Shown piece by piece: positions 3,001-60,000 of a stretch of 64,000 bases of DNA. The stretch is from NCBI RefSeq assembly GCF_030463565.1, contig NC_134656.1, positions 7,178,501 through 7,242,500 on the forward strand, read 5' to 3'. The stretch is from Pelecanus crispus. Lineage: Eukaryota > Chordata > Aves > Pelecaniformes > Pelecanidae. Position 1 is the first letter of the stretch; every line of letters starts with the position of its first letter. Under the pieces are notes generated by a model that was not told the origin of the DNA, did not search any database, and was given only the letters and a program-made list of their open reading frames with translations. The position numbers and the translations under genes are program-made.

Positions 3001-3225
3001 AGTGAGGGACTACAGAATATAGAGACTCTCATCCGTTGCCCAGAGCAGCATTTCTCACATAATGCTATAAACTGTAGTACAATTGATGGGAGTTTCCCAA
3101 ACACCCTTTATTTGAATGGCTTTGCCGCAAATTCCACTGAAACGCTCAGGCCAATAGCCTTTATTATTTTCCTGCTCCCAATGATTGCTTTAATAATAAC
3201 ATTTGTTATTTTTACAGGTGCCTAC
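1..3225 (-). other. CASS4: CASS4 intron 2 (partial)
   Basis: This stretch follows the CASS4 exon 2 donor on the minus strand. I see no further CASS4 exon: no continuation of the YxxP-rich substrate domain with splice borders appears in any minus frame. It contains a T-rich simple repeat near 1627-1664 and an isolated CpG-rich patch at about 1437-1545. Confidence 0.7.
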
Positions 3226-6200
3226 CTGGTTTGTTGAGCTTTGGGTCCTTTCACTGCACAGCTGTGCAGCCAAGGCTGGTACCTGATACGTGCCTCGGGC
3301 AGGTAGGGTGGAGACCCTGGCTGGGGACTTAACCCACCCCTCCATCTTCTCGTAGGTGGACGACAACACGGGAGGCTTGGGGACGGAGGGGACCTGGTAG
3401 ATGTTTTGCTGGCCCGCCGGCGACTCTGCGGCGTCGCTGCGGGTGGCGGGAGGCAGCGGGACAGCCTGCGAGGCGGTGAGGAGCTGGAGGCGGTTAGCGG
3501 GGGCCAGGCCCTGCCTGCCGTGGAGGGAGCATTTCCACCAGCCCTCGCTGCCGATGACGTTTTGGTCCAGAACCGTCAGGATGTCTCCTTTGCGGAAGGC
3601 CAGCTCATCCGAGCACTCCGCTTTGTTATCATATAGTGCCTTCGCCAAGGTATTCTGGAGAGAGAAAACACATCGGCGTTGTGCTGTTACACCAGCAAAA
3701 ATCTTAATTAGTTTCTGGTCTGGTGTTTATCTCCACCGTAATTTCAATTTAATTCAAGTCCACCCATTTTCACATTAAACAACATTTCTCAGAGCGTTGG
3801 TTTCGGCAAGTCAAACGTTTGCAGCCTGTGTCTGCTATGCTCGGTGCAGTAAAGAAACAGATAATACTGCAAGATGTTTCTTCACCACCTTTTCCCCCCT
3901 GAGGCTCTTGAAGAGCACTGCTAACATTCATTACTTAGACTTACTACTTAAAAACACCCCTATATGAAAAATAGGTAGTTTTCCCCACTGGCATTCCGTG
4001 AATTTTTTGTCAGAAGCCACAGAGAAAATGCATCACCCATCCAAAAGTAAAACTCATGCCTTCCTACCTGCTACCCAGTTTATCTGAGGACTTCAACTGC
4101 ACATGAAAAAAGCTAATTATTTCTTCCCTGAAGGAAAAAAAACAACCAAACAACCCACCACAAAACACCCGACCTTGCTTATTTTCCTTTACACTTTTTC
4201 TTTCCTCAGAGCCTTATAAGAAAGGCCTCTCAGCAAAGCCAATGCTAAGGGGGTTAACGAGTGCCCGGTGGTAACACCGGTGGCAGAAACACCGCTGAAG
4301 CGCAGCGACGGGCTGCGGTACTTGTGAAGACCCAGACCCCAGCTAGCTGCGTCCTTGTCCACCCCAGACTAGAGAGCTGGATCCTGCTGATTCAGAGCAT
4401 CCCAGGCTAAAGATTCATGAGACACATTAGCTCAGGGAAAAAAATCCAACAGTGCACAGAGTGACACCAAACAAATCGCTCTGCTGGCTGGCAAGTCTTC
4501 ACAGCACGTTGGTGCATTTGTGAGCTTATGTCCAGGCAAGCACAGCTCAAACAGTGTCTGTGTTTCTCTCCATCACACGGACATCACCTGTAGCTGAATA
4601 CTTCTGTCTCCAGTATATCTTTCAGCATCTTCATAGAGTGCTCTTACTGTAATTTTATTTTAGACAGGAAGCCAAGGAAGAATAGAGCAAGCGACTTTCC
4701 TAAGATCACAGAAAATCTGTGAGACAGCAAATGTTCATATTTCCCAGCTTCTTCACCGCAGGGCAGCCCTACCTGTCTTGGCTGAAGCCTATACATTTCT
4801 GGCAGTCATGAGTGTGTAGTTCACCACATTTTATTTTTAGCATATTTGGGGCATTTGCTTACTCATTACAAGATGACAGTTAAAAGAATGAAAAGCAGTA
4901 GCAGCAGGTAGCTTTATTCACCTGAGGCATTTGTGCAAAGGGTAGCGAGAGCTGTGGACGTAGTGTTTTTCAGTACAAGATACCATTTGCTTTCAGCTTT
5001 AAAATGAGACCGACTGCTTCCTAGTCAGTGGGACACTGGCTGTGTTTCAGCATTAGTTCCTTATCAGAAAGTGCAAGTAATGTCCAAAGAGATAGTACCC
5101 AAATAGGAAACGTGATGCCTTGTATTTTTGTCCAGAGCATTTGCTGTAAAGCAACAGCTGGTTTGAAGTTGCAGCAGAAGAAAACCAATTTGTCAGCTCA
5201 GCTGATGAAAGTGGCCTGTTGTTAGCAGCACGCATTTCTTCGTCAGGGTGGCCATGAACAATGGCCTTTTTATGATACATGGGCTTGTCCATCAGCAGCT
5301 GCCAGAGATGGACAACAGTCCCATTTACCTTATGTCGTAGCCTGGTTAAAATAGTCTTCTTGCCTTGAACATGGGAGCCCACTTTCTATTTGGACAATGC
5401 CAAATGCTCTGAACCACCTGTGTTGAAGCCAGGCCTTCAGGAATCCCACCACAGAGTGCAGCCTGGGGTGGGTTTGGACTTCACACAATGTTGTTGTAAT
5501 TGTAAAAAAAAAAAAAAAAGGAAAACTGCCAACTTTTCCTATTATTCATCAGCCACACTTCTGGATCTGGGTTAACATTTGATCCCTTCTTGCTGGGCAC
5601 TGTACAGACATGCTGAAAGACAGACCCTCTTCTTCAGGCCTGAAGAGGATGGGCAGAGGGACACTCTCCCCCTTTTGCAAACAGGCAACTGAAATGTGAA
5701 GGGCCTTATCCAAGCGCACACAGGAAATCCGTGGCAGAGGCCGGAAGCCTGAACTCAGGAACTGAGCCCCTGTCTAGTGCATTAGACAGCAAGACCATCC
5801 TTCCTAGTTGCACCAACACAAATAAGAGGAAAATTTGGTTCACACTACGGTTTTAAAAGGCATCTAAATGTTGACATTTCCCCAGCTAATTCTTTCCTGT
5901 GGAAACAGCATACTAAACACATCATTGGGCCTAATTAATTAATCAATGTACGAAACTATGCAAGTCTACTTTCAAATCTCATTTGTTTTAGGGTAAATAT
6001 GCTGATTTTCACTAGGCCAGGGTTTGGCCTGTACACGTCGGTGAGAATTTCTGCAAATAATTACTGTAGACTGCAACCTAAGTTATGCAGAGCGAGGAGG
6101 TACTCTTCCCATCAGTGATACTTCAGCAGCAATAAAACGTGACTGCAGCAGGCATTAGCAGGAGAAATAATTCCAGCTATTGTCTCATCTCTTTCCCTAG

Positions 6201-20192: not shown

Positions 20193-25852
<5,660 letters not shown>

Positions 25853-32000: not shown

Positions 32001-35000
32001 TGCACTGAAAGTGCTCTTTAAAACACAACTCGAGGAAGCCGGCGTAGAACATCAACTACGAAGAGAAGTTGAAATACAGTCTCATCTTAGGTAAAGTTTA
32101 GTGATTCTTTGTTTATTTGAACACAAAGCAGAGTAACCTTGTTTATGATAACATGCCCTGCTGAAGAAAAGAGAAGTTTCTTTTAAACATGTGAAATTGC
32201 TAGTTAGGATTCTTGACTTTCTGCACCAAGATTTAGCTTTGTCTAGCTTGCAATGAAGTAACATTTGGTACCAAATCTTCCTATTACAAAAAAAGCCCCC
32301 AACCTTGTTTGCTGCTTGGATTAACATGTGTAACTGCAATTTCTCAAGAGTCTGAGCTTGCTTCTGGTATTAGTTTCCTGGAAAGTAAGCCCAACTTGCT
32401 GAAGAAATTAGTTGTTTCACAAAAAGTATTTACACTTAAATTCCAAACCCCATAGGAATTGGCACCTTCAATGGTAATCTACTCTTGCAGCTGCTGTAGA
32501 AAGGCATGTTCAAGAAGATACGAATTAGCCAAACTCTTGGCTAGCTGCTTGCTTGTAGGGAGTCCAAGCTTCTGCTTTGATAAATACCATCTACCTGCTA
32601 TGAAGCTCTCTTAATGGGTGTGCTGTGTGCTGAAGTTCCTATGCTTGCCTTGAAAGGGTGGAGGCAGGAAAGGTAAATTATTAAAGTTATATGGACAAAT
32701 ACCTTGTTCAGGAGAATATTTAAATCTTTTTGCAGGCACCCCAACATTCTCAGACTATATGGCTACTTCCATGATGTTACAAGAGTCTACCTTATTCTAG
32801 AGTATGCACCTCGTGGAGAAGTCTACAAAGAACTTCAGAAGCTTACCAAGTTTGATGAGCAAAGAACTGCTACTGTAGGTTGTTCTAGCTGCTTATACAT
32901 TACTTAGTCTTTATATCTGGAATATCTATAGCATAAAGCTAGCTCTTCAGATAAAGTTCTGTATTCTGTTGTGTGAAGCTGAGATTCCTTAGATGCCAGT
33001 TCACTTGTGCACTTGTAACAAGGAGTAAGTTGGGGAGACAAATGACTGCACAGCACTGATGTAACAACATTCAGCACCGCTTAATACAGCAAGTACTTGG
33101 TCACTTCCAGCAGGGCCTGTATTGCCAGACTTCAAGGGCTTAAGGAATAATTGCTGTAACTTAAGCTACTAATTATGCCTAGAAAAGGCTATACTGTAGC
33201 CAGATAAGCCAGAGTGACAATGTTATACTTTAAAGATTTGTTCTCTTTCTAAATACAGTACATCACAGAACTAGCAGATGCCCTATCATACTGTCATTCA
33301 AAGAGTGTGATTCACCGAGACATCAAGCCGGAAAACTTGCTGCTTGGCTCAAATGGAGAGTTAAAAATTGCTGACTTTGGATGGTCTGTGCATGCTCCAT
33401 CTTCTAGGTGAGAATGCAATATATACCTTAGGCAGTGAAATACTTCTGCAGTGAAAATGTTAGCTTTCTTGTCACACTTAGAGTTGTGGAATGGAGGTAA
33501 ATGTGAACTTCCTAAAATATTGGGGGGGGTGGAATTTAAGAACTGGGCCACTGCAGCAGAGGTTGTAATAGTCAACTGGTGTAGCAGAGAGGGAGTGTTG
33601 CTATCCTGTCTTTTTCAACTTGTATAGTTCAAAACTTGCTGAACCTGAAACAAGTGAAGGCTGGTGTACTGTTGTGGGGTTATAGTGGTCCCCAGGATGA
33701 CAGACCAGCACTTGTGTTCAAACACACACTAGCAATATACTTAAGACATTTCCTTAATTAGTCTGAACTGCACCTAACAAAGGAAGACTATATTTGATCT
33801 AGTGAGTGGGATGAAAAAAGGAAGCATAAGACTGAATGCAGGGACCAAGATGCTTTAAAGCAAAAGTAGAAAACTTACTGCTGGAACTTCTTTATAGGTA
33901 TTCTGGTGGTGCTGAGTCTATCCAGGGTAGCCTGCACTGAGGTACAGATGATTGCCACCATTAGCTTCTATCTGCTCTTGAAATGGGTCTTAATAGTTGC
34001 CATAATCGGTAGATAATTAACTTAGACTTTTTTCAGGAGAACAACTCTCTGTGGGACACTTGACTACCTGCCTCCTGAAATGATTGAGGGAAGAACACAT
34101 GATGAAAAGGTGGATATTTGGAGCCTGGGAGTTCTGTGCTATGAATTCCTTGTAGGGAAGCCACCTTTTGAAGCAGAAACATACCAGGAAACCTACAGAG
34201 CTATTTCTAGGGTATGTGCCAACACTTATTTGGACTAGCTGAATTCTGCTGCCTTTTCAGTTCTGTTGTCTTATTGAAGCTTAACAAATGGTCATCTTGA
34301 AGGGCATGTATTATAACTAGAACTGTAGCAAGACAATGATATGCATAAAACTAGATCCCTAAAGCTGTCTGAAATGACTATAAGAGACCCTAAGATACCT
34401 TGCCTTACTACTTTGGTTCCACCCTGTTTCTGCCTGCATTTGAACTTCTACCTTTTTCATAAAGCAACTAATCTTTTCTTCATCTTTCCTAATTTATAAA
34501 ATGAATATTTAACATTCAAGGTGTTAGTAAAAATACATAAACTTAACTTTTACTGTTGCATACCCTAGAAAGGTTCCAGCAAACTCATCTTGTTTGAAGT
34601 ACATTGAGAAATACATTAGCTTAACTCCTACAAGCAGTGAGAACCTGGTTTTCTTCAGGATCATGATGAAATTACTTAATGTTGTCTCACTAGGCATAAG
34701 GTGCATAGCCCACAAGGCTGACACGCTTTCCTTTCTAGATGTGCCTTGGAAGGTAGAGCCGTCTCTAGTTTGGTTGATGCAAAAAGTTCTTTGGCAATAT
34801 CTTTAATGTCATTCCTTTTCCTTAGGTGGAATTCAAGTTTCCTCCATTTGTAACAGAAGGCGCGAGGGATTTAATTTCAAAGCTTCTGAAGCATAACCCA
34901 TTCCATCGACTGCCCCTGAAGGATGTACTACTTCATCCCTGGATTACAGCAAACTCTACAAAGATGCCCAACAGCAGAAAGAGTGATGTTGCTGCCTCAT

Positions 35001-35011
35001 CCAGAACATAG
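29035..35011 (+). CDS. AURKA: Aurora kinase A, complete coding region
   Basis: Ser/Thr kinase of centrosomes and spindle poles that drives mitotic entry and spindle assembly, activated by TPX2 and BORA (family knowledge). Coding exons: 29035-29088, 30227-30509, 31106-31184, 31899-32090, 32736-32874, 33259-33407, 34037-34211 and 34826-35011. All introns are GT-AG; the coding total is 1257 bases, 418 residues (human 403). The N-terminal region carries a KEN box (residues 6-8) and the A-box QRVLCPSN coded by exon 2 of the coding set, both mitotic degrons. Kinase domain: LGKGKFGNV loop (about 153-161), catalytic lysine K176 in [19 protein letters not shown], activation-loop RRTT with T302 equal to human T288 (constant offset of 14), GTLDYLPPE, and HPWITAN near the end. 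A C-terminal RxxL D-box (RLPL) is present. The protein is intact. AURKA rather than AURKB/C is supported by the N-terminal boxes, GWSVHAPSS, and the CSTF1 neighbour. Confidence 0.97.
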
Positions 35012-39168: not shown

Positions 39169-42100
39169 TCATGGATTTGGGGCAGGAGGTTTGAAGAAAC
39201 CAATCTTCCGGCAGTATCGGACAATAAATGGCACAGAAACTACAGTAATGGTGATTCGTACTGGAGCAAACAATTTGTGAATAGCATATGCCAACACAAA
39301 TGTGCTTGTACCAGCAGCCACTTTAGATTCCAATGATGATTCACTGAAACCAAGTTTGAGGAGAACTGCAGTCATATCCACACCACTGGGGAAAAAGAAA
39401 ACAAGATTTTTTAATTTATTTTAAGTTGCACGCTAAAGAATATAAAGTAAAAGTGCTATTTTTTCAGGGAATTTAACATGGCATACCTCCAGCTCTGGAA
39501 TTTATGTTTAAATCTAGATGTTGTTAAATAATAAAAACAATGCATTATTTCAGCAGTAACAGCTCAAGTTACTTCTGTAGCAACAACACATGCAATATTT
39601 TCAGATGCACATTTTTTTTTCTTAAATTGACAGGATCCCTGTGAAGTCAAGTATGTTCTTAGTTTTACAACTGTATAGCTGCAGCATGTGCATGGAGAAT
39701 ACTCAGCCCCATGCTCAACCTTCTGATAAAATAATCTATTTCTCTACTTTTGAATTTTAAAAACATTAGAAATTTATGAATTTGTGTTGGAAATTAGTCT
39801 TCCCAAAATTTACAATAAAGTCTATTCTGTGTCTTGATGAAATTTATCACATAAATATAAATCAACCCAAACCAAATAAAGTACCCGTTGTTAGGCGTAG
39901 AGTGTTCTAACAGGAGTACAAAGCTGTTAAAATGACAAGTATCTTACCTAAAATCTAGCAAGTGAAGGAAGCATTATGATCTCAAATAAGCGTTATCCGC
40001 CAAATCCATTAATATTTTAATTCGCTATAGACATAGCAGCTTTCACCAAGGTTCCCATGTTTGGAGTAATTTTCCAAAAGCAGTTGTTACTGTAACTTTT
40101 CCCCCTTCACTTGCCAGGGCAGTATCTTGTAACTGGTAGGTAAATCACACCTGAAGGAAAAATTTTCATTGTCCCCCTGTGCCACGACGTAGTAAATGAG
40201 AAAAATGAGGCATTCGCATATTCCCGCTGAAGTCAAGCGTAAGCAGCAGGGAATGTTTTGAGAAACAATGTGTTTCCCTACTTCTTTAGTTGAAATACCT
40301 CATATTCAACAGACATATCAGTAACTGATGCATTCCCACCAGAAGCCACATACACAATTTCCCACCTGACTCCTATACAGTTATCCAGTATTTTCTTTTT
40401 TAATCTAGTCCCATTTTAGCAGCTGTTGCCTTCTGCAGTTTCAACAGCAGAAACTGAGTTCAACACCCAGAAAAATAAATTTATCTCTAAGCTCCAGTAC
40501 TTTTGTATAGCTCTATCTGTACAGACCATGCTACTGTTTGAGAACAAAAGATATCTCTACAGAACAAAAACAAATTCTTTCATCTGCCTAGTTACTCTGA
40601 TGCAGTCTCTGCTGTTTTCACCTGCCCACCATGGACTGTGAGCCTATGCAAAAGTGACCATGTACATCTATCTTCTCTCATGCCTGTTGGGAGATTAGAT
40701 CCATTTATGGGTCCATCTATACTTCAAATTCAGAAGATTACTGTGTATAGATGGAACAGGCATAGAGTACATATCTCCTTCCAGAAATAAGCACAATGGT
40801 AAGATATTTTTCTTGGCTAAACCATTACCTAGAGGCTACAGACAACTGTACAAACCTCACCTTGACACAGCCAGGTAGAAGATTCCTAGAGATACTAATG
40901 AAATTCCAATATGGAATGAAACCCCTACAGCACCATATTCTTTAAAAACTTGTTTCAGTTGCTGGGATTTGTTGAGTTTCTTGTTTTCACCACTGGGATC
41001 CGTGGCTGCCTTTTGGGGGGATACACCTGCATCCTAAAAAGAAAACAATTAAAAGTGTTTATTAGCATTAAGCACAATATCATATTCTAGTCAGCTGAAC
41101 CAATCTGAAATAATGAAAGAAGTGACTTGCATACAGTGCTGTTCAGAACGCTTTGGGAAAAACAGTAACACATTTTTGCTTTTTCACATCAGGATAGCAG
41201 GTGCCTGTGGCAGAGCCCATGCAAGCTCCCTTTTCCCAACTATTCATATCAAAAGCATGCACTGAGCTTGGTGCAAGCTCTTACACAATTTCAGAATTCA
41301 AAAGAGTTATTAAAGTCTCAGTCTTCCATTTGATCCAAATGTGTGCTAAGGCACACCCACACAGTTGCTTGAGAGGTAAGACTGAGGTGCCAAAGAGATC
41401 TTTGCTTACACCCACTGCTCATCTCTATACAGTGAGTTCTTGTAACATCGCTTTTTGTTCAAGGGCTAAGCAGCTGACGGCACTGGAAGCCTGCATGATA
41501 CCAGACTGATGCTGGCTTACTAACAACTTACTGATAGGAGAGCTCCAACATTTAAGTTCCTATAAATCACCCTCTGTAGATCAGCTGAGAAAAGGAAGAA
41601 CTGGAAAACTGCTACTGTTGACAGCAACAAGCAATACAGCTGCCATGGTGTAGACAATAGCTACACAGACATGCCAGTGTCAGTGTAAATAGCCTAACTT
41701 CACTGAAAAGGTCTGTCATAGTAAAATTTATTGACAGCTTTTTATCTGGGTAAATTTAAAGTGCAGAACTTCATACTAAAAAAACCACCCCAAAGCAATC
41801 TGATAGTGCAATGCAGGCAAACAAGGGCGTATATGCTGCTAGTAATGATAGCCCTTGGATACCTCCTCATATTTGCCATAGAAGAAATACTAACTGGAGA
41901 AAGAAAACATTTCCACAAACACTTCAGGATTTTTCTCTAATTAGTGAGCAGTTGTCAGGAAGGATCAGAAGAGTCCTTTCTTTTCAGCTGAATTCAGCAG
42001 CAGTCGTGACACTATGACAGCCAGACTAAAGGCCACTGCTGCCCACAGGACAGGTACAGTTGCTGAGTGCCTGGCACCACTTTGTCCTACTGTAGATTGG

Positions 42101-44446
42101 TTTCAAGGCACACAAATTAGAAGAAAAATACTTCTGATTAATCCTTGGACTTGGCGAGACTGTAAATTAGGATACAAGACAGGGTCCTCTTACAACACTC
42201 ATGGTAGGATGAACTCGCTTTAATCAGTGATTTTAACCACCACACCACTGCCCCCAAACCCCCTATGTTTGCTGCTGTTTTTCTCTTTTTAATCATAATT
42301 TGTGTTACTTCATATTTCATTCTGAAAGGAAATCACACTGATCCATAAACATGTATTTAGGAAATTGTGTAGCTCAACTTATTCTGATTCTCGTATTTTT
42401 AAAATTTTCAGACATATTGGATAATGTTAGATTTTTTTTTTGGGCTCATGATCCAAAGCAGTATTTGAATAGAAATTGAAACTTGACTAAGAAAGAAAAA
42501 TGTCCAGTAGAAAAAGAAATCTTTTACTGCGTAAACTATGCAGTTTTAATACTAGAGGGTAAATGAGGAAAAAATGTTCATATATATATATTTTGAAGCC
42601 AGCTTGTTAAGCAAAAGAATGGATTCATAGTTAATCCAATTACTTTCAGCCACTGGAATTAGTTAGATTCCACACGTGGCTGCACTACATGGCTGCTACT
42701 TCACCATGTTTCAGAACTCATTCTCTTAATTTCATTATAGGAAAAGGGGTGGGGGTGGGGTGGGTGGGTGGAGAGAAGGGAAGAATGCTGTTTTAACTCC
42801 CAGTCTGTAAAATTTAAATACTGAGTTACTGAATGGAACTAGCTGAATAAACTGAACAAAATAGTCTCATAATACCTTCTGCCAAAAGCTGTCCTAACAA
42901 TTCAATCAACATCACATGCTCAGTCAAGAATACTCATTTATTCAACAGTGTGATTTTCTTAAAAGCCAAGCATGGTTTGAATGGTATTTTAAGATTTAAT
43001 AGTGTATAGTGAATTTTTCATACAAACAAAGATGATCATTGTCTATTTAAGGAGCCAAACATGAAGATTTTCTTCAGATAGCTGCCACAAAAACAGGAGC
43101 TGACAATCTCCAGAGATATGTAAGCCTCAGAGGAACTCTGGGTCTCACAGCTACGCTCCAAGATGGATCATCAGGACTGAAAAATAGCTTGTTCTCATCA
43201 TCCAAGTACATTTCAATTCAGTCATGCTCTCAGACTCACATACCAGGTAATTTCTGAATGGTATCGAAACAAAATGTTAAAAAAGTATGTCTTCAACAGA
43301 TATTATTTGCGCTATCCAGTGCAATCATGTCCTGAATAACATACAACTTAGGAAAGCAAGCTACCTATTATCCACATAATTCTGCTAGAAAGCCAATTTT
43401 ATTCCCATCATTTAGACAAAGATTCAGTTTCTGGATGAACTCGGGCATGAAAACAAATCTGAAACATCAGGTTATTCTTTGTAGTGAGGATACAGAATTT
43501 AACCTGAAAGTTGAGCTGTAGAAATTAAACTGTGAATGAGGCTTTGTATGGAAAGCTCACATTCACAATCTTGGCGCAAGCAGGTCCCGGTCTCCTACAG
43601 AAACCCCGCATAAACGTGATTTAATAATTTACTGCAGTGCAAAACCCAGTTACGTGTAAGGCCTTCATTTGCTTTTCTCCCTGAGTCAATTCAGACTTAA
43701 AACCAAAACAATGAATGGTACAAATTCATACAAATTTTTCCTTCCCACCTCCAGAAAACGAAGCGAATGCTGGAAGCCCGGTGAGGCACACGTTTGTGTT
43801 TTCTCTCTCGGGCAGCAGCAAGGCGCGGGCCCTCTCCGCAGCCCCGGGGCCAGCGTGCCAGCTGCTGCCGTCTTCAGGGGCTAAACCCCCCGGCGCTTTT
43901 AGAAAACCCCTTCACCACCGCCACCAGGAACAGCCGGGGTACTAAACCCCCCTTTTTTCATTTTTCATGACTCACCTGAAGCGCTCAAACTCTGCAGCCC
44001 ACTGGGAAAACACCCTCCCCACACACACCACCCCCCCCACCGCTGAGGCGGCGCAGGCCAGCTGAACCCCTAATCTTGAAAACACCCGCAAAAGCTGGAA
44101 AACGCTTCCAGGCCAGGACAACTTGTGCTTTGATCGGCGCTACGACCCGCTCCCCACCACGGCATCTCCCCCCAGAGGCGGGCCCTCAGCCCGCGCTGCC
44201 CCTCACGCAGCGCGGTGCCTCACGGGGGGGGGGGGGGGGGGCCTCCCACCCCCCCGCCATTACCTTGGCGGAGGTGCCGGCGGCGGATCGCAGCGTTACG
44301 AGGGGCAGCGGCGGGCTGAGCCCAGGCGGGGCCAGGCGGGGAGCGCAGCCCAAGGCGCGGGGGCCGGCGGGGAGGGGGTGGCGGGGCGGGGGGCTGCGCG
44401 GAACCGCCGGCGGCCGCAGCGGGCCCAGGCGCACCAGGCGGTACAT
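39169..44446 (-). CDS. FAM210B: FAM210B mitochondrial membrane protein (DUF1279 family), complete coding region
   Basis: Mitochondrial protein linked to energy metabolism and erythroid differentiation (family knowledge). Coding exons on minus: 44264-44446 (ATG 44444-44446), 40861-41033 and 39169-39385 (TGA). Borders are GT-AG and the total is 573 bases, 190 residues (human 192 as recalled). Residues 1-60 are rich in Arg, Pro and Leu with no acidic residues, fitting a cleavable mitochondrial targeting sequence. Then come the conserved SQQLKQVFKEYGAVGVSFHI helix, a first membrane segment (GISLVSLGIFYLAVSSGVD), a linker (LLKLGFSESSLESKVAAGTS), a second membrane segment (about TFVLAYAIHKLFAPVRITIT to VPFIVRY) and the tail GFFKPPAPNP. 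The start has G at -3. The protein is intact. Intron 2 (39386-40860) and intron 1 (41034-44263) show no other gene. Confidence 0.95.
44224..44241. repeat. G homopolymer, 18 bases, beside FAM210B exon 1
   Basis: An uninterrupted G run on plus (C in the FAM210B transcript), about 22 bases beyond the exon 1 donor. It is the third such run in a CpG island of this window, and its length is uncertain. Confidence 0.8.
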
Positions 44447-44660
44447 AGCGGCGGCGCAGCCCCAACTCTGAGCGCCGAGCGGGGCGGGCGGGCGGCCAGA
44501 CCTGACAAGCCGAACACCAGCCCCGCCCGCCGCCGGCCGCCCTCCGCCTTAAAGGGGCAGCGTCCTTTGGGACGCTGCCCCTTTAAGGCGGAGGGCGGCC
44601 GGCGGCGGGCGGGCTGGCCGGCGGCCATTTGAGGGAGGGCGGCTCCAGAGAAGGGGAGCC
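44447..44660 (-). promoter_or_regulatory. FAM210B: FAM210B CpG-island promoter
   Basis: GC-rich, CpG-dense DNA upstream of the FAM210B ATG; the island extends into exon 1 and intron 1 to about 43760. GGGGCGGG-type SP1 sites lie near 44480-44492. No TATA box is visible. It contains the 44-bp inverted repeat at 44522-44613 and a GGCCATTT (YY1-like) motif at about 44622-44630. Confidence 0.55.
44522..44613. repeat. perfect 44-bp inverted repeat with a 4-base loop
   Basis: Arms 44522-44565 and 44570-44613 were checked base by base and are fully complementary, separated by the loop TTTG (44566-44569). With one bulged base (44521) pairing continues for four more pairs (44517-44520 with 44614-44617). 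The arms contain CCTTAAAGGGGCAGCGTCC. The repeat lies 76-167 bases upstream of the FAM210B start codon. Confidence 0.95.
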
Positions 44661-44893
44661 AGCGCTGCGCGCTTTTCCTCTGAGGGAAAAAAAGTCTCTA
44701 AGAGCCCTGCCTTGCCATTTGGGACGGTGTAAACCAGGCCCCTGCCTTGGCTTGGCTGGCTAAACGCCCTCCAGCCCCTTTCTGGAGGGGGCTGTAGGAG
44801 AGTGACCGCAGCGGTTTTTCGGGGTGGCCTTCCAGGTAGCTCGCCAAGCGTGGAGAATTGCTTTTTTCAGTCCCCTCGGTGGTAAGGAAGGCT

Positions 44894-45200
44894 GAAAGGA
44901 GGGTGTAGCGAGGTGGGTGTTGGGCTCTTCTCTCACGTAGTTAGCGATAGGACGAGAGGAAATGGGCTCAAGCTGTGCCAGGGGAGGTTTAGATTGGATA
45001 TCAGGAAAAATTTCTTCACGGAAAGAGTGGTTAAGCATTGGAACAGGCTGCCCAGAGAGGTGGTGGAGTCACCATCCCTGGAAGTGTTCAAAAAACGGGT
45101 AGACGTGGCACTTTGGGACATGGTTTAGTGGGCATGGTAGTGTTGGGTTGATGGTTGGACTGGTGATCTTAGAGATCCTTTCCAACCTTAATGATTCCTA
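44894..45200 (+). mobile_element. CR1 LINE, 5'-truncated 3' end
   Basis: Plus-strand CR1 ORF2 C-terminus ([20 protein letters not shown] through [15 protein letters not shown], 44913-45128) followed by the CR1 3' UTR (ttgatggttggactggtgat) ending in a degenerate TGATTCCTA at about 45200. The copy is truncated at about 44894. Confidence 0.88.
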
Positions 45201-45207
45201 GTTTTTA

Positions 45208-45366
45208 CTTTCATTAAAAATAATCCAGCCACCAAGCCAGGAAACATGAAATTGCTGCTCTTCCCTTAATTGGTTTAGTGGTGGACTTGGTAGTGTAGGT
45301 TAATGGTTGGACTGGATGATCTTAAAGGTCTTTGCCAACCCAAATGATTCTATGATTCTACGATTT
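45208..45366 (+). mobile_element. short CR1-tailed repeat unit with an unusual head, copy 2
   Basis: Head block at about 45208-45253 (contains taatccagccaccaagccag) is nearly identical to the minus-strand block at 8479-8525. It is followed by a CR1 3' tail (attggtttagtggtggactt to the ATGATTCTATGATTCTACG end at about 45360). It directly follows another CR1 copy, so the two insertions lie side by side. Confidence 0.6.
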
Positions 45367-49619: not shown

Positions 49620-50698
49620 CTGTGAGAGGAATTTAGGGTGAGAAGTTTCCCCCATGTCCAATTGAGTCAACACCAGCCAGCTCCAAGACGGACCCGCTGC
49701 TGGCCAAGGCCAAGCCCATCAGCGATGGCGGCAGCGCCTCTGGGATAATGTATTTAAGAAGAGGGGAAAAAAAAACCCTGTGCAACTGCAGCCAGAGGAG
49801 CGAGAATATGCGAGAGGAACGGCCCTGCAGCCCCCAAGGTCAGTGCAGGAGGAGGGCAGGAGGGGCTCCAGGCGTGGAGCGGAGATTCCCCTGCACCCCT
49901 GGTGCAGCCCATGGCGAGGCAGCTGTGCCCCTGCACCCATGGAGGCCCCCGGGGAGCAGAGATCCCCCTGCACCCGGGGAGGAGCCCACGCCGGAGCAGG
50001 GGATGTGCCCCAAGGAGGCTGGGACCCCGGGGGAAGCCCACGCCGGAGCAGGCTCCTGGCAGGAGCTGTGGCCCCGTGGGGAGAGGAGCCCAGGCTGGAG
50101 CAGGTTTGCTGGCAGGAATTGGGACCCCGCGGGGGACCCAGGCTGGAGCAGGCTGCTCCTGAGGGGCTGCACCCTTGGAGGGGACCCACGCGGGAGCAGT
50201 TGGTGAAGAGCTGCACCCGTGGGAAGGAGCCATGCGGGAGCAGTTCATGGAGGGCTGTCTGCCGTGGGAGGGACCCCACGCTGGAGCAGGGGAGGAGTGT
50301 GAGGAGCCCTCCCCTGAGGAGGAAGGAGCGGCAGAGATGATGTGCGATGAACTGACCGCAACCCCCATTCCCCGTCCCCCTGCGCTGCTCGGGGGGAGGA
50401 GGGAGAGAAAATTGGGGGTGCAGTTGAACCCAGGAAGAAGGGAGGGGTGGGGGGAAGGTGTTTTTAAGATTTGGTTTTATTTCTCATTACCTTACTCTGA
50501 TTTGATTGGTAATAAATTAAACTAATTTCCCCAAGTTGAGTCTTTTGCCTGTGACAGTGATTGCCGAGTGATCTCTCCATGCCCTTTTCTTGACCCGTGA
50601 GCCTTTTGTTGTATTTTCTCTCCCCATCCAGCTGAGGAGGGGAGCAATGGAGCGGCTTTGGTGGGCACCTGGCATCCATCCAGGGTCAGCCCACCACA
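49620..50698 (+). mobile_element. fossil avian LTR (solo LTR-like, ERV class)
   Basis: Its sequence matches a family I recall as common in neoavian genomes (TguLTR5-like; the name is from memory). Parts on plus: U3-like start at about 49620 (5' border uncertain); TATA-like TATTTAAG near 49750; a GC-rich middle (about 49830-50330) made of roughly nine imperfect units of 40-65 bases, each with a GGAGCAG core; a poly(A) signal AATAAA near 50512; and a terminal block ending in CCACCACA at 50691-50698. No internal gag/pol/env region is present, so it is a solo remnant. It is not protein-coding despite long open frames in several registers. Age: moderate, probably tens of millions of years or less given its recognisability. 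Confidence 0.75.
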
Positions 50699-56393: not shown

Positions 56394-57062
56394 CATAGAA
56401 TCATAGAATCGTTTAGGTTGGAAAAGACCTTTAAGATCATCCAGTCCAACCATTAACCCACACTACCAAGTCCACACTAAGCCAATCAAGGGTAGACTAG
56501 ACTAAACCATGTCCCAGAGTGCCACGTCTACCCGTTTTTTGAACACTTCCAGGGATGGGGACTCCACCACCTCTCTGGGCAGCCTGTTCCAATTCTTGAC
56601 CACCCTTTCTGTAAAGAAATTTTTCCTAATATCCAACCTAAACCTCCCCTGGCGCAGCTTGAGCACATTTCCTCTCGTCCTATCGCTAATTACGTGAGAG
56701 AAGAGCCCAACACCCACCTCACTACACCCTCCTTTCAGGTAGTTGTAGAGAGCGAGAAGGTCTCCCCTCATCCTCCTCTTCTCCAGGCTAAACAACCCCA
56801 GCTCCCTCAGCCGCTCCTCATAAGGCCTGTGCTCCGGACCCTTCACCAGCCTTGTTGCCCGTCTCTGAACACGCTCCAGCACCTCAATGTCTTTCTTGCG
56901 CTGAGGGGCCCAAAACTGGACACAGTATTCCAGGTGCGGCCTCACCAGCGCCGAGTACAGGGGGACAATCACCTCCCTGCTCCTGCTGGCCACACTATTC
57001 CTGATACAAGCCAGGATGCTGTTGGCCTTCTTGGCCACCTGGGCACACTGCTGGCTCATTCG
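56394..57062 (-). mobile_element. CR1 LINE, longest copy in the window, 5'-truncated
   Basis: The 3' CR1 signature (ATTCTATGATTCTATG) lies at 56395-56410 on minus. An open frame at 56502-57059 on minus, 185 codons, is the ORF2 C-terminal region after the reverse transcriptase: [87 protein letters not shown]. The frame is uninterrupted over the remaining part, suggesting a fairly young copy. It is truncated at about 57062. Confidence 0.95.
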
Positions 57063-60000
57063 CCTCGGTACGGGTTGCCAAACAGGGCAATTGGGGCCTG
57101 ACCTTGTGGCAAAGTCAGCATGTACTGCAAGAGATGCTTAAAAAACCTTCGGACTTTTCAGATCTTTATTTAGAGGAATGAGGAGATAGTTCACAGGATG
57201 TACTTCAGTGGACAATACCAATCAAATTGAAATTCTAAGCTGTATATTCATGCTCGGCAATAGATTATTTTTAAATGATGTAAAATGTTAGCTAGAAAAA
57301 TGGTTTCCATCTAGGTTAACAATAGGAGCTCTTGTATAAGCCACCAGAGCTTTAAAAAAATGCTTAAAAATAATTTCCTGAAATCTTCTAAATGGAACTG
57401 ACTGAAGATAAAATTTGGAATAATTTCCTCCAGAACCTCCATTATGTTTAACTTGTTGTTATCAACATCTGAATTGCATTTCTGAGGCACCAACCATATA
57501 TGCTCACAAATGTATTGCATGCTTTTATTTTTGTAGTTAGAAATGCTCCAAATGAAGGAAGGAACCTTTGTTATTAGGAAAAATACTGAATGGTAATTAA
57601 AAAACCTCACCTTGTCCAGGTTATTATTTCCTGCTGTAGACTACCAGGTGCCAACTTTATATTTTTCTTCTGCAGTTGGAACATTTGTATATTGGTAGGG
57701 TACAAGAATGTCCAGCAGGGAGGATATTCAACTTTCTGGAAATTTGTTGAAGATCATGGAACACTGCCAAATGTTTTTCTCTTCTAAATGTATAGCTGTA
57801 TATTTAATAAATGTTACCGAATTTGTAACATTACCATCCCCATATCTGCCTTAATATGAAGGGACCTGAAGGTTGCACATTGCCATGCTCAAAGGTTAAG
57901 ATCCTTGGCAACTAGAATACCAAACTAGATGAATAGCCTGTAATGAATACCGGGGTTTTTTTTTTGTGTGACTATGGGAAAAAGTCTGATTAACAGATTT
58001 GTCTTACGATTTCAAAAGGATTCAGATTTCTTCTTCACTTTCTTTCTTAAACCATAGTGTAAGACTACTGTGTGCTCTCAGGCAGATGTTTCATTGTACC
58101 TCAGAAGAATTTTGTGACTTTTTGCACATTTCTTAAAACAGATTAAAAAAGAATTATATTGGTGAGCAAGTACTTTATAGCAGTATTTGGGGCTCTGTAA
58201 AAACAGAAACAATACTTGTCCACTGTTGTAAAATATTTTTAACTTAGTTGCTTCCTCATTCATGTGAAATTTTCTTATTTAAAAAAACAAGTTGGCTTTA
58301 TAATGTGCACTCTGGGTTGTTTATAGTGCTGAGTTGCTTTCAACATGCTGCTTTAACGTGGGGATGTAGGACAGTTTCTTGCTGGCCAGCAGCTTCAGAG
58401 AGTTAATTCAATATGCAGATCCTGAACTTCAATGAAAGACTTATTATCTGGTAGTGGCTGAGCCTCAGGAGGCTGACTGTACCTTCAGGCTTTTGACTCA
58501 AGCTTCTATGGAAGGCAGCTGCCACTTTCATGCTGCGTTTTATCTGTTGAGGTCCTGGCTTAGTACATGCACACTCTTGTTACCATCAGCCCCAGAAGGT
58601 GAAGGAGAAAAACATCAATTTCCTTTCAAATTCACTTGGAGTTCAGTGCGAACTTTAGGAGATACAGTTGCTAAGGACCTAGAGGTGATTCATCCATTAT
58701 CGGATAATCTGTCTTTAGCTGAAATTATTTAAATACAGTGAATTGAAGACAAAACCCCCATCTCCTAGAACAGAGAGTACTTCTTGTAGAAATGAGCAAA
58801 GTATTTTAAGTTAATCGAACACTTTCAAAATTAAAAAAATCTGGCTGCTTTGGACTGCCTAGTGGAAGCAAAGCAGAAGGAAATCTGATTTACCATGGAT
58901 TTAGATGGGCTTTCCATCATCTTTGTTAACAGAGTGCAAAGCAGCAGGCTAAGGCTCTTATATCTGTTAGTTTTAACCTAACTTCTCTTCTTTTTGCCCT
59001 TCAAAAATAATAATTGTGGAATGAACATTTCTTGGACTTGTTTTAATGTTTAAAATGAGCAGATGCTCACCTAACATAGCTTGACATCTATTGATTTTAA
59101 ATTTTGTTTCTGTTTCATCAGTTGTATCCTGATTAAAATGGCATGGACCATCTTCTGATGTTCAATCTAAAACTTAACTTTTGTAAAATCTCTTGGGTTT
59201 TAATATTCAATAAACAAGAAGCAGAGAGAGCTAGTAGCCTGAGTGCTGAGGGCAGTTAGCAAAATCTGTGGACCGATGCAACAGCTTTAATTGGAAGTAA
59301 CTAGAATTTACGTGGCTTTGGGCCCTGACATTTATTTTCAAGGATTTCTCATTAATAAGATTTTTCTTTCTTTCCCTTTTGGCTTTAGATAGAAATGCTT
59401 TATTTAATGGATTCGTCAGCTTTCCCATTCTGTCAGAAATCAGACAAACAGCCACTCATTTAAGTGGTTTATGTGTTGATATTCTGTGCACCTAAAATAT
59501 CCAGAGGGAGGAAACAAGTTGAGTGTCTGATCCTGCAGCTCTCTTCACAGCAAAGCTCATATTAAATCCTAGCTTTTCCATGAAGAAGTCATAGTCTTAC
59601 AGAGTATTAATAAATAAATAATCTCTTTGTCTTACAGAGCTGATAGTAGTAATGAGAAGTTTCATATCTCACTTGATCTATCTGGATGAGAATGTAGCCT
59701 GGAAAGTGCTCTTAAAACTACTTCTACTTCCTAGCTTTACATACTGCTGAAGGTAACTCTTATTTATTTTTGTATTTATAAAGGAATACATTGATGAGAA
59801 ACTTTTATCAGCTTTTGGAAGAACCAGTGATTATTTTAATGCAATGCTTTTTTCCAGGAACTTGACATCTCTCTTCTTTACATATTCTGGATCTGAATCA
59901 CCCTCAATCTGAAGTTAAATATTACTGATTAATTCTCCCTTGTATCACTTGTAGATAATTTGTTTCTTTGTCTACTGTGTTTAATTTTCATCTTGCACTG

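Follow-up and report, generated by a model that had tools for sequence, protein, structure and literature searches.

A perfect 44-bp inverted repeat upstream of the presumed FAM210B start in Pelecanus crispus, probably left by one short-range template switch

Histories of RNA genes, in the passages of PMC8794818 that bear on this question, are consistent with template switching making perfect stems in one event. For great apes, the relevant part of PMC7954356 gives templated stretches with a median of 12 bases (MAD 4.5) and a maximum of 128, and states that perfect inverted repeats are often left behind. The hairpin described here shares with short-range template-switch hairpins, as these are set out in the portions of PMC8794818 on the four-point model and the MIR633-type origin, perfect reverse-complement arms, a short spacer, a presumed origin in one step and unlike outer flanks. 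It differs in lying in a GC-rich promoter and in its length, since an event of 44 bases is long against the median of 12 in that part of PMC7954356, yet inside the range reported there.

The hairpin was found in a stretch of 64,000 nucleotides from Pelecanus crispus, called here the window; all coordinates are positions in it. The left arm (44522-44565) and the right arm (44570-44613) are 44 nt each and 100% complementary, and they are separated by a 4-nt spacer, TTTG on the plus strand (44566-44569) and CAAA on the minus strand. Each arm holds 36 G or C among its 44 bases and 7 CpG. Outside the arms, the left run carries one unpaired C, beyond which pairing resumes between CCAG (44517-44520; the left outer extension with its unpaired C being 44517-44521) and CTGG (44614-44617), for a full stem of 48 pairs. 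The sequence-only reading, which had reported exactly complementary arms around a 4-base loop and four more pairs past one bulge, was thus correct to the base.

A repeat of this size is not expected by chance. With independent bases at the composition of 44181-44700, about 1e-15 perfect inverted repeats of 44 bp would be expected. A scan of the whole window for perfect arms of 12 or more with loops of 0-100 returned five inverted repeats, with arms of 44, 14, 12, 12 and 12 bases. In the surrounding 1,608 bases, with the palindrome removed, the longest arm is 9 bases at loops up to 20, and order-2 Markov simulations of the same palindrome-free sequence (n=300) reached a maximum of 12. A chance origin was rejected. 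The outer extension is another matter. At least four further pairs past one bulge or mismatch were obtained in 3.2% of 200,000 random flank pairs taken from 44181-44700 (palindrome included), so that these four pairs say little alone.

The hairpin lies beside the start of a gene read on the minus strand. The presumed ATG is at 44446, which places the arms 76-167 bases upstream of it, as had been proposed. The presumed coding part of exon 1 runs from that ATG to 44264 on the minus strand, followed by a donor read from the sequence as AAG/GTAATG. No Pfam family matched 44266-44446 in this presumed exon, and the FAM210A/B domain (PF06916) was matched by two downstream minus-strand frames, 40857-41033 (1.2e-10) and 39169-39420 (3.4e-15), which would contain exons 2 and 3. 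The earlier assignment to FAM210B is therefore upheld at the level of the FAM210 family; that the gene is FAM210B rather than FAM210A is our assumption from synteny. Other frames in the window matched a kinase domain (34026-34238), an SH3 domain (3190-3726) and WD40 repeats (21875-22477), and these would presumably, on the same synteny, fit AURKA, CASS4 and CSTF1; the frame 34826-35011 matched no domain family. FAM210B is a mitochondrial protein tied to haem synthesis.

The hairpin lies within the GC-rich, CpG-rich promoter or leader of this gene. The GC content is 0.81 and the CpG observed/expected ratio 0.80 in 44181-44522, with 0.79 and 0.98 in the hairpin itself (44523-44613), and to the right of it (44614-44760) the values drop to 0.63 and 0.49. 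Sequence near 44960-45200, which we take to be CR1-like, would suit an avian host. A few other features of the window were recorded. The plus strand has a run of 18 G at 44224-44241, just within presumed FAM210B intron 1 and some 20 bases beyond the donor of exon 1. The block 49876-50289, open in four frames, consists of three imperfect tandem arrays, GC-rich and with periods of 40, 52 and 44, and another array with a 19-base unit (3.3 copies, 95% matches) lies at 24166-24228. The minus-strand frame 56502-57137 (211 codons) presumably resembles the terminal part of a CR1 LINE reverse transcriptase; it gave no Pfam match at E 0.001.

Which arm came first can be judged only from the surroundings, because the arms differ from each other only by inversion. 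The GC skew is -0.28 in the left arm and +0.28 in the right arm. We compared these values with overlapping GC-rich 44-nt windows taken within 44242-44680 outside the palindrome, and the left-arm value was lower than all 261 of them (median +0.22, 11% negative). Composition models of order 0, 1 and 2, each trained on the two flanks together or on either one separately, favored the right arm as native in all nine combinations, by log-likelihood differences of 0.9 to 11.5 nats. A leave-one-out control at order 0 scored 66 of 71 flank windows as native and 5 the wrong way. The argument is weakened by two pieces in which the skew is nearly absent, 44422-44521 (0.01) and 44181-44299 (0.0), by flank limits that we chose ourselves, by the overlap of the compared windows and the negative skew of 11% of them, and by the 5 control windows that scored the wrong way. 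Taken together, this moderate evidence from strand composition points to the left arm as the probable inverted copy and to the right arm as the probable original sequence.

The reading that we prefer, at roughly two chances in three (about 0.66), is that the hairpin is a real, young and perfect inverted repeat produced during DNA synthesis by one short-range template switch. The nascent strand would first have copied one arm and the 4-base spacer, would then have taken the newly made (or complementary) strand as template and copied about 44 bases backwards, and would finally have rejoined the original template beyond the site. If the left arm is the insert on the plus strand, synthesis would have proceeded in the minus-strand direction. 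A switch with return is the best fit because it accounts for perfect 44-bp arms, a 4-nt loop, the composition of the arms and outer flanks that are unlike each other, two unlike flanks being what such an event leaves. The sequence-only reading had offered recent, maintained and artefactual origins side by side; these same four features favor the recent one, and an artefact appears less likely.

The perfection of the arms also sets a rough limit on age. If the neutral rate is set at 1, 2 or 3e-9 per site per year, values that are assumed rather than measured, the lack of any difference across 88 bases puts the 95% upper limit on age at 34, 17 or 11 million years, respectively. The event would be older if the arms had since been corrected against each other. 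If the copy initially reached 44517, one later single-base indel would be required to leave the unpaired C.

How the hairpin ends on its outer sides bears on two other origins, each of which we regard as unlikely. Sequencing, library preparation or assembly could have folded the sequence back on itself, in which case the second arm would be absent from the animal. Perfect identity around a tiny loop is the product expected of fold-back priming, and GC-rich promoters are hard to sequence, with the 18-G run in this case about 280 bases away. According to the excerpted portion of PMC13141652, inverted-repeat chimeric reads make up 0.18-7.33% of reads in ligation-based nanopore libraries; the chimera class is, however, defined there by pieces of >500 bp, not 44 bp. 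Past the arm, a plain fold-back of a read would run on into sequence complementary to the left flank. Beyond the 4-base extension, the sequence that follows the arms here is not the complement of the sequence that precedes them, which weakens the artefact reading. Each of the two flank pieces, 44480-44521 and 44614-44660, is unique within the window, so that two junctions would have had to be faked together, and the window contains no N. The other unlikely origin is an older quasi-palindrome whose arms were equalised by template switching, the outer bulge being the remnant of an old mismatch. It would likewise give perfect arms with a residual outer mismatch, and the four pairs that continue past the single bulge (chance 3.2%) hint at a quasi-palindrome that may have been present beforehand. 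The change from a near-perfect to a perfect inverted repeat is called the typical short-range template switch in the cited part of PMC7954356, and passages of PMC8794818 describe such correction as a means to restore stems. Correction requires, however, an older imperfect hairpin of this length, toward which only the 4-pair extension points, and that extension is only mildly unlikely by chance. No further similarity of the flanks rose above shuffled sequence: 19.8% of 2000 shuffles were as good beyond the bulge, and 96 of 1000 (9.6%) were as similar when the right flank was compared with the complement of the left over 40 bases. A wider quasi-palindrome past the bulge is thus unsupported.

An imported sequence or a selected one would also have to be considered. 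A copy of a short fold-back mobile element is suggested by the shape of the hairpin only, and we find it scarcely credible: no target-site duplication was seen (between the 22-23 bases beside one end and those beside the other, shared direct words reach 4 bases at most), and there is no second copy in the window, where exact matches outside the site extend to 12 bases at most, with the longest made of G and C only. A search limited to exact matches found none for 19 bases of one arm in viral, bacterial or archaeal contigs, leaving a viral or microbial source unsupported. We consider it highly improbable that the hairpin is a maintained functional element, either acting as a cruciform or hairpin within the promoter or leader or being transcribed and processed to small RNA. 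Its position in a promoter would suit such a role, as would the stability of the stem, which is predicted at -120.8 kcal/mol for the hairpin alone as RNA in the minus-strand sense (about -77 kcal/mol as a single-strand DNA hairpin). The fold z-scores against shuffles (-15.6 and -11.7) restate the perfect pairing and are no separate evidence. So strong a stem in a leader should, on the other hand, stop scanning. Models of miRNA do match, with E-values down to 8.3e-05, the best among the seven Rfam matches listed for 43900-45300 (six miRNA and one cis-regulatory, E up to 1). All seven fall far below the curated thresholds, and microRNA membership was rejected on this count. The hairpin is about as long as the mir-3127 and mir-2861 precursors in Rfam, and it scores below both thresholds (38.8 bits vs 82 for mir-3127 and 38.1 vs 89 for mir-2861). 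The miRNA matches involve both strands and five families with different names, a pattern expected of a long GC-rich stem, and we read them as due to stem shape and GC content. Among the FAM210B promoter papers listed by our literature search, no hairpin appeared in the titles or abstract openings. The portion of PMC7999016 cited here associates palindromes with longer and more identical arms and shorter spacers with a greater risk to genome stability, and some instability might be expected at this site.

If the hairpin arose by a template switch, it was probably tolerated rather than selected, with transcription starting inside or downstream of it. Such a start, which the sequence-only reading had thought probable, is plausible because the predicted stem is strong and because an out-of-frame upstream ATG is present at 44628 on the minus strand. 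From this ATG, a mechanically predicted frame of 110 codons (44296-44628, minus strand) runs through the hairpin and extends across the FAM210B start in a different reading frame. Leaders starting above 44628 would carry both the hairpin and the upstream ATG, and starts at or below 44521 would avoid both. Known motif patterns were scanned in 44430-44760. There were six matches to the initiator-like BBCABW, one of them at 44472 on the minus strand, and eight to the Sp1 core GGGCGG, two in each arm; those for NRF1, ETS, CCAAT, TATA, CRE, the TCT initiator, E-box, ZNF143, GATA and CTCF had no match in that interval. A suspected YY1-type motif just to the right of the hairpin did not match the consensus. 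These motif matches do not fix a start site, and none can be called from them. Very little weight is given to a model in which some FAM210B transcripts start upstream of 44617, with the hairpin forming their first part and acting as a switch. Transcripts carrying the hairpin could not be scanned and might feed small-RNA processing, and those starting at about 44470-44520 would make protein. If this were true, FAM210B would have gained an additional level of control at once, through one recent copying slip.

Under the template-switch origin that we favor, the hairpin is a known kind of mutation, unusually long and conspicuously placed, and function is not needed to explain it. Should the second arm prove to be an artefact, the locus would serve as a warning of falsely perfect hairpins in the GC-rich promoters of assemblies. 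If it is real, it would be a clean and potentially datable example, in a vertebrate promoter, of a template-switch hairpin that arose in one step and is unusually long. The site could also provide a natural test of promoter tolerance toward a strong cruciform-forming sequence, and of the rate at which the perfection of a hairpin decays or is restored.
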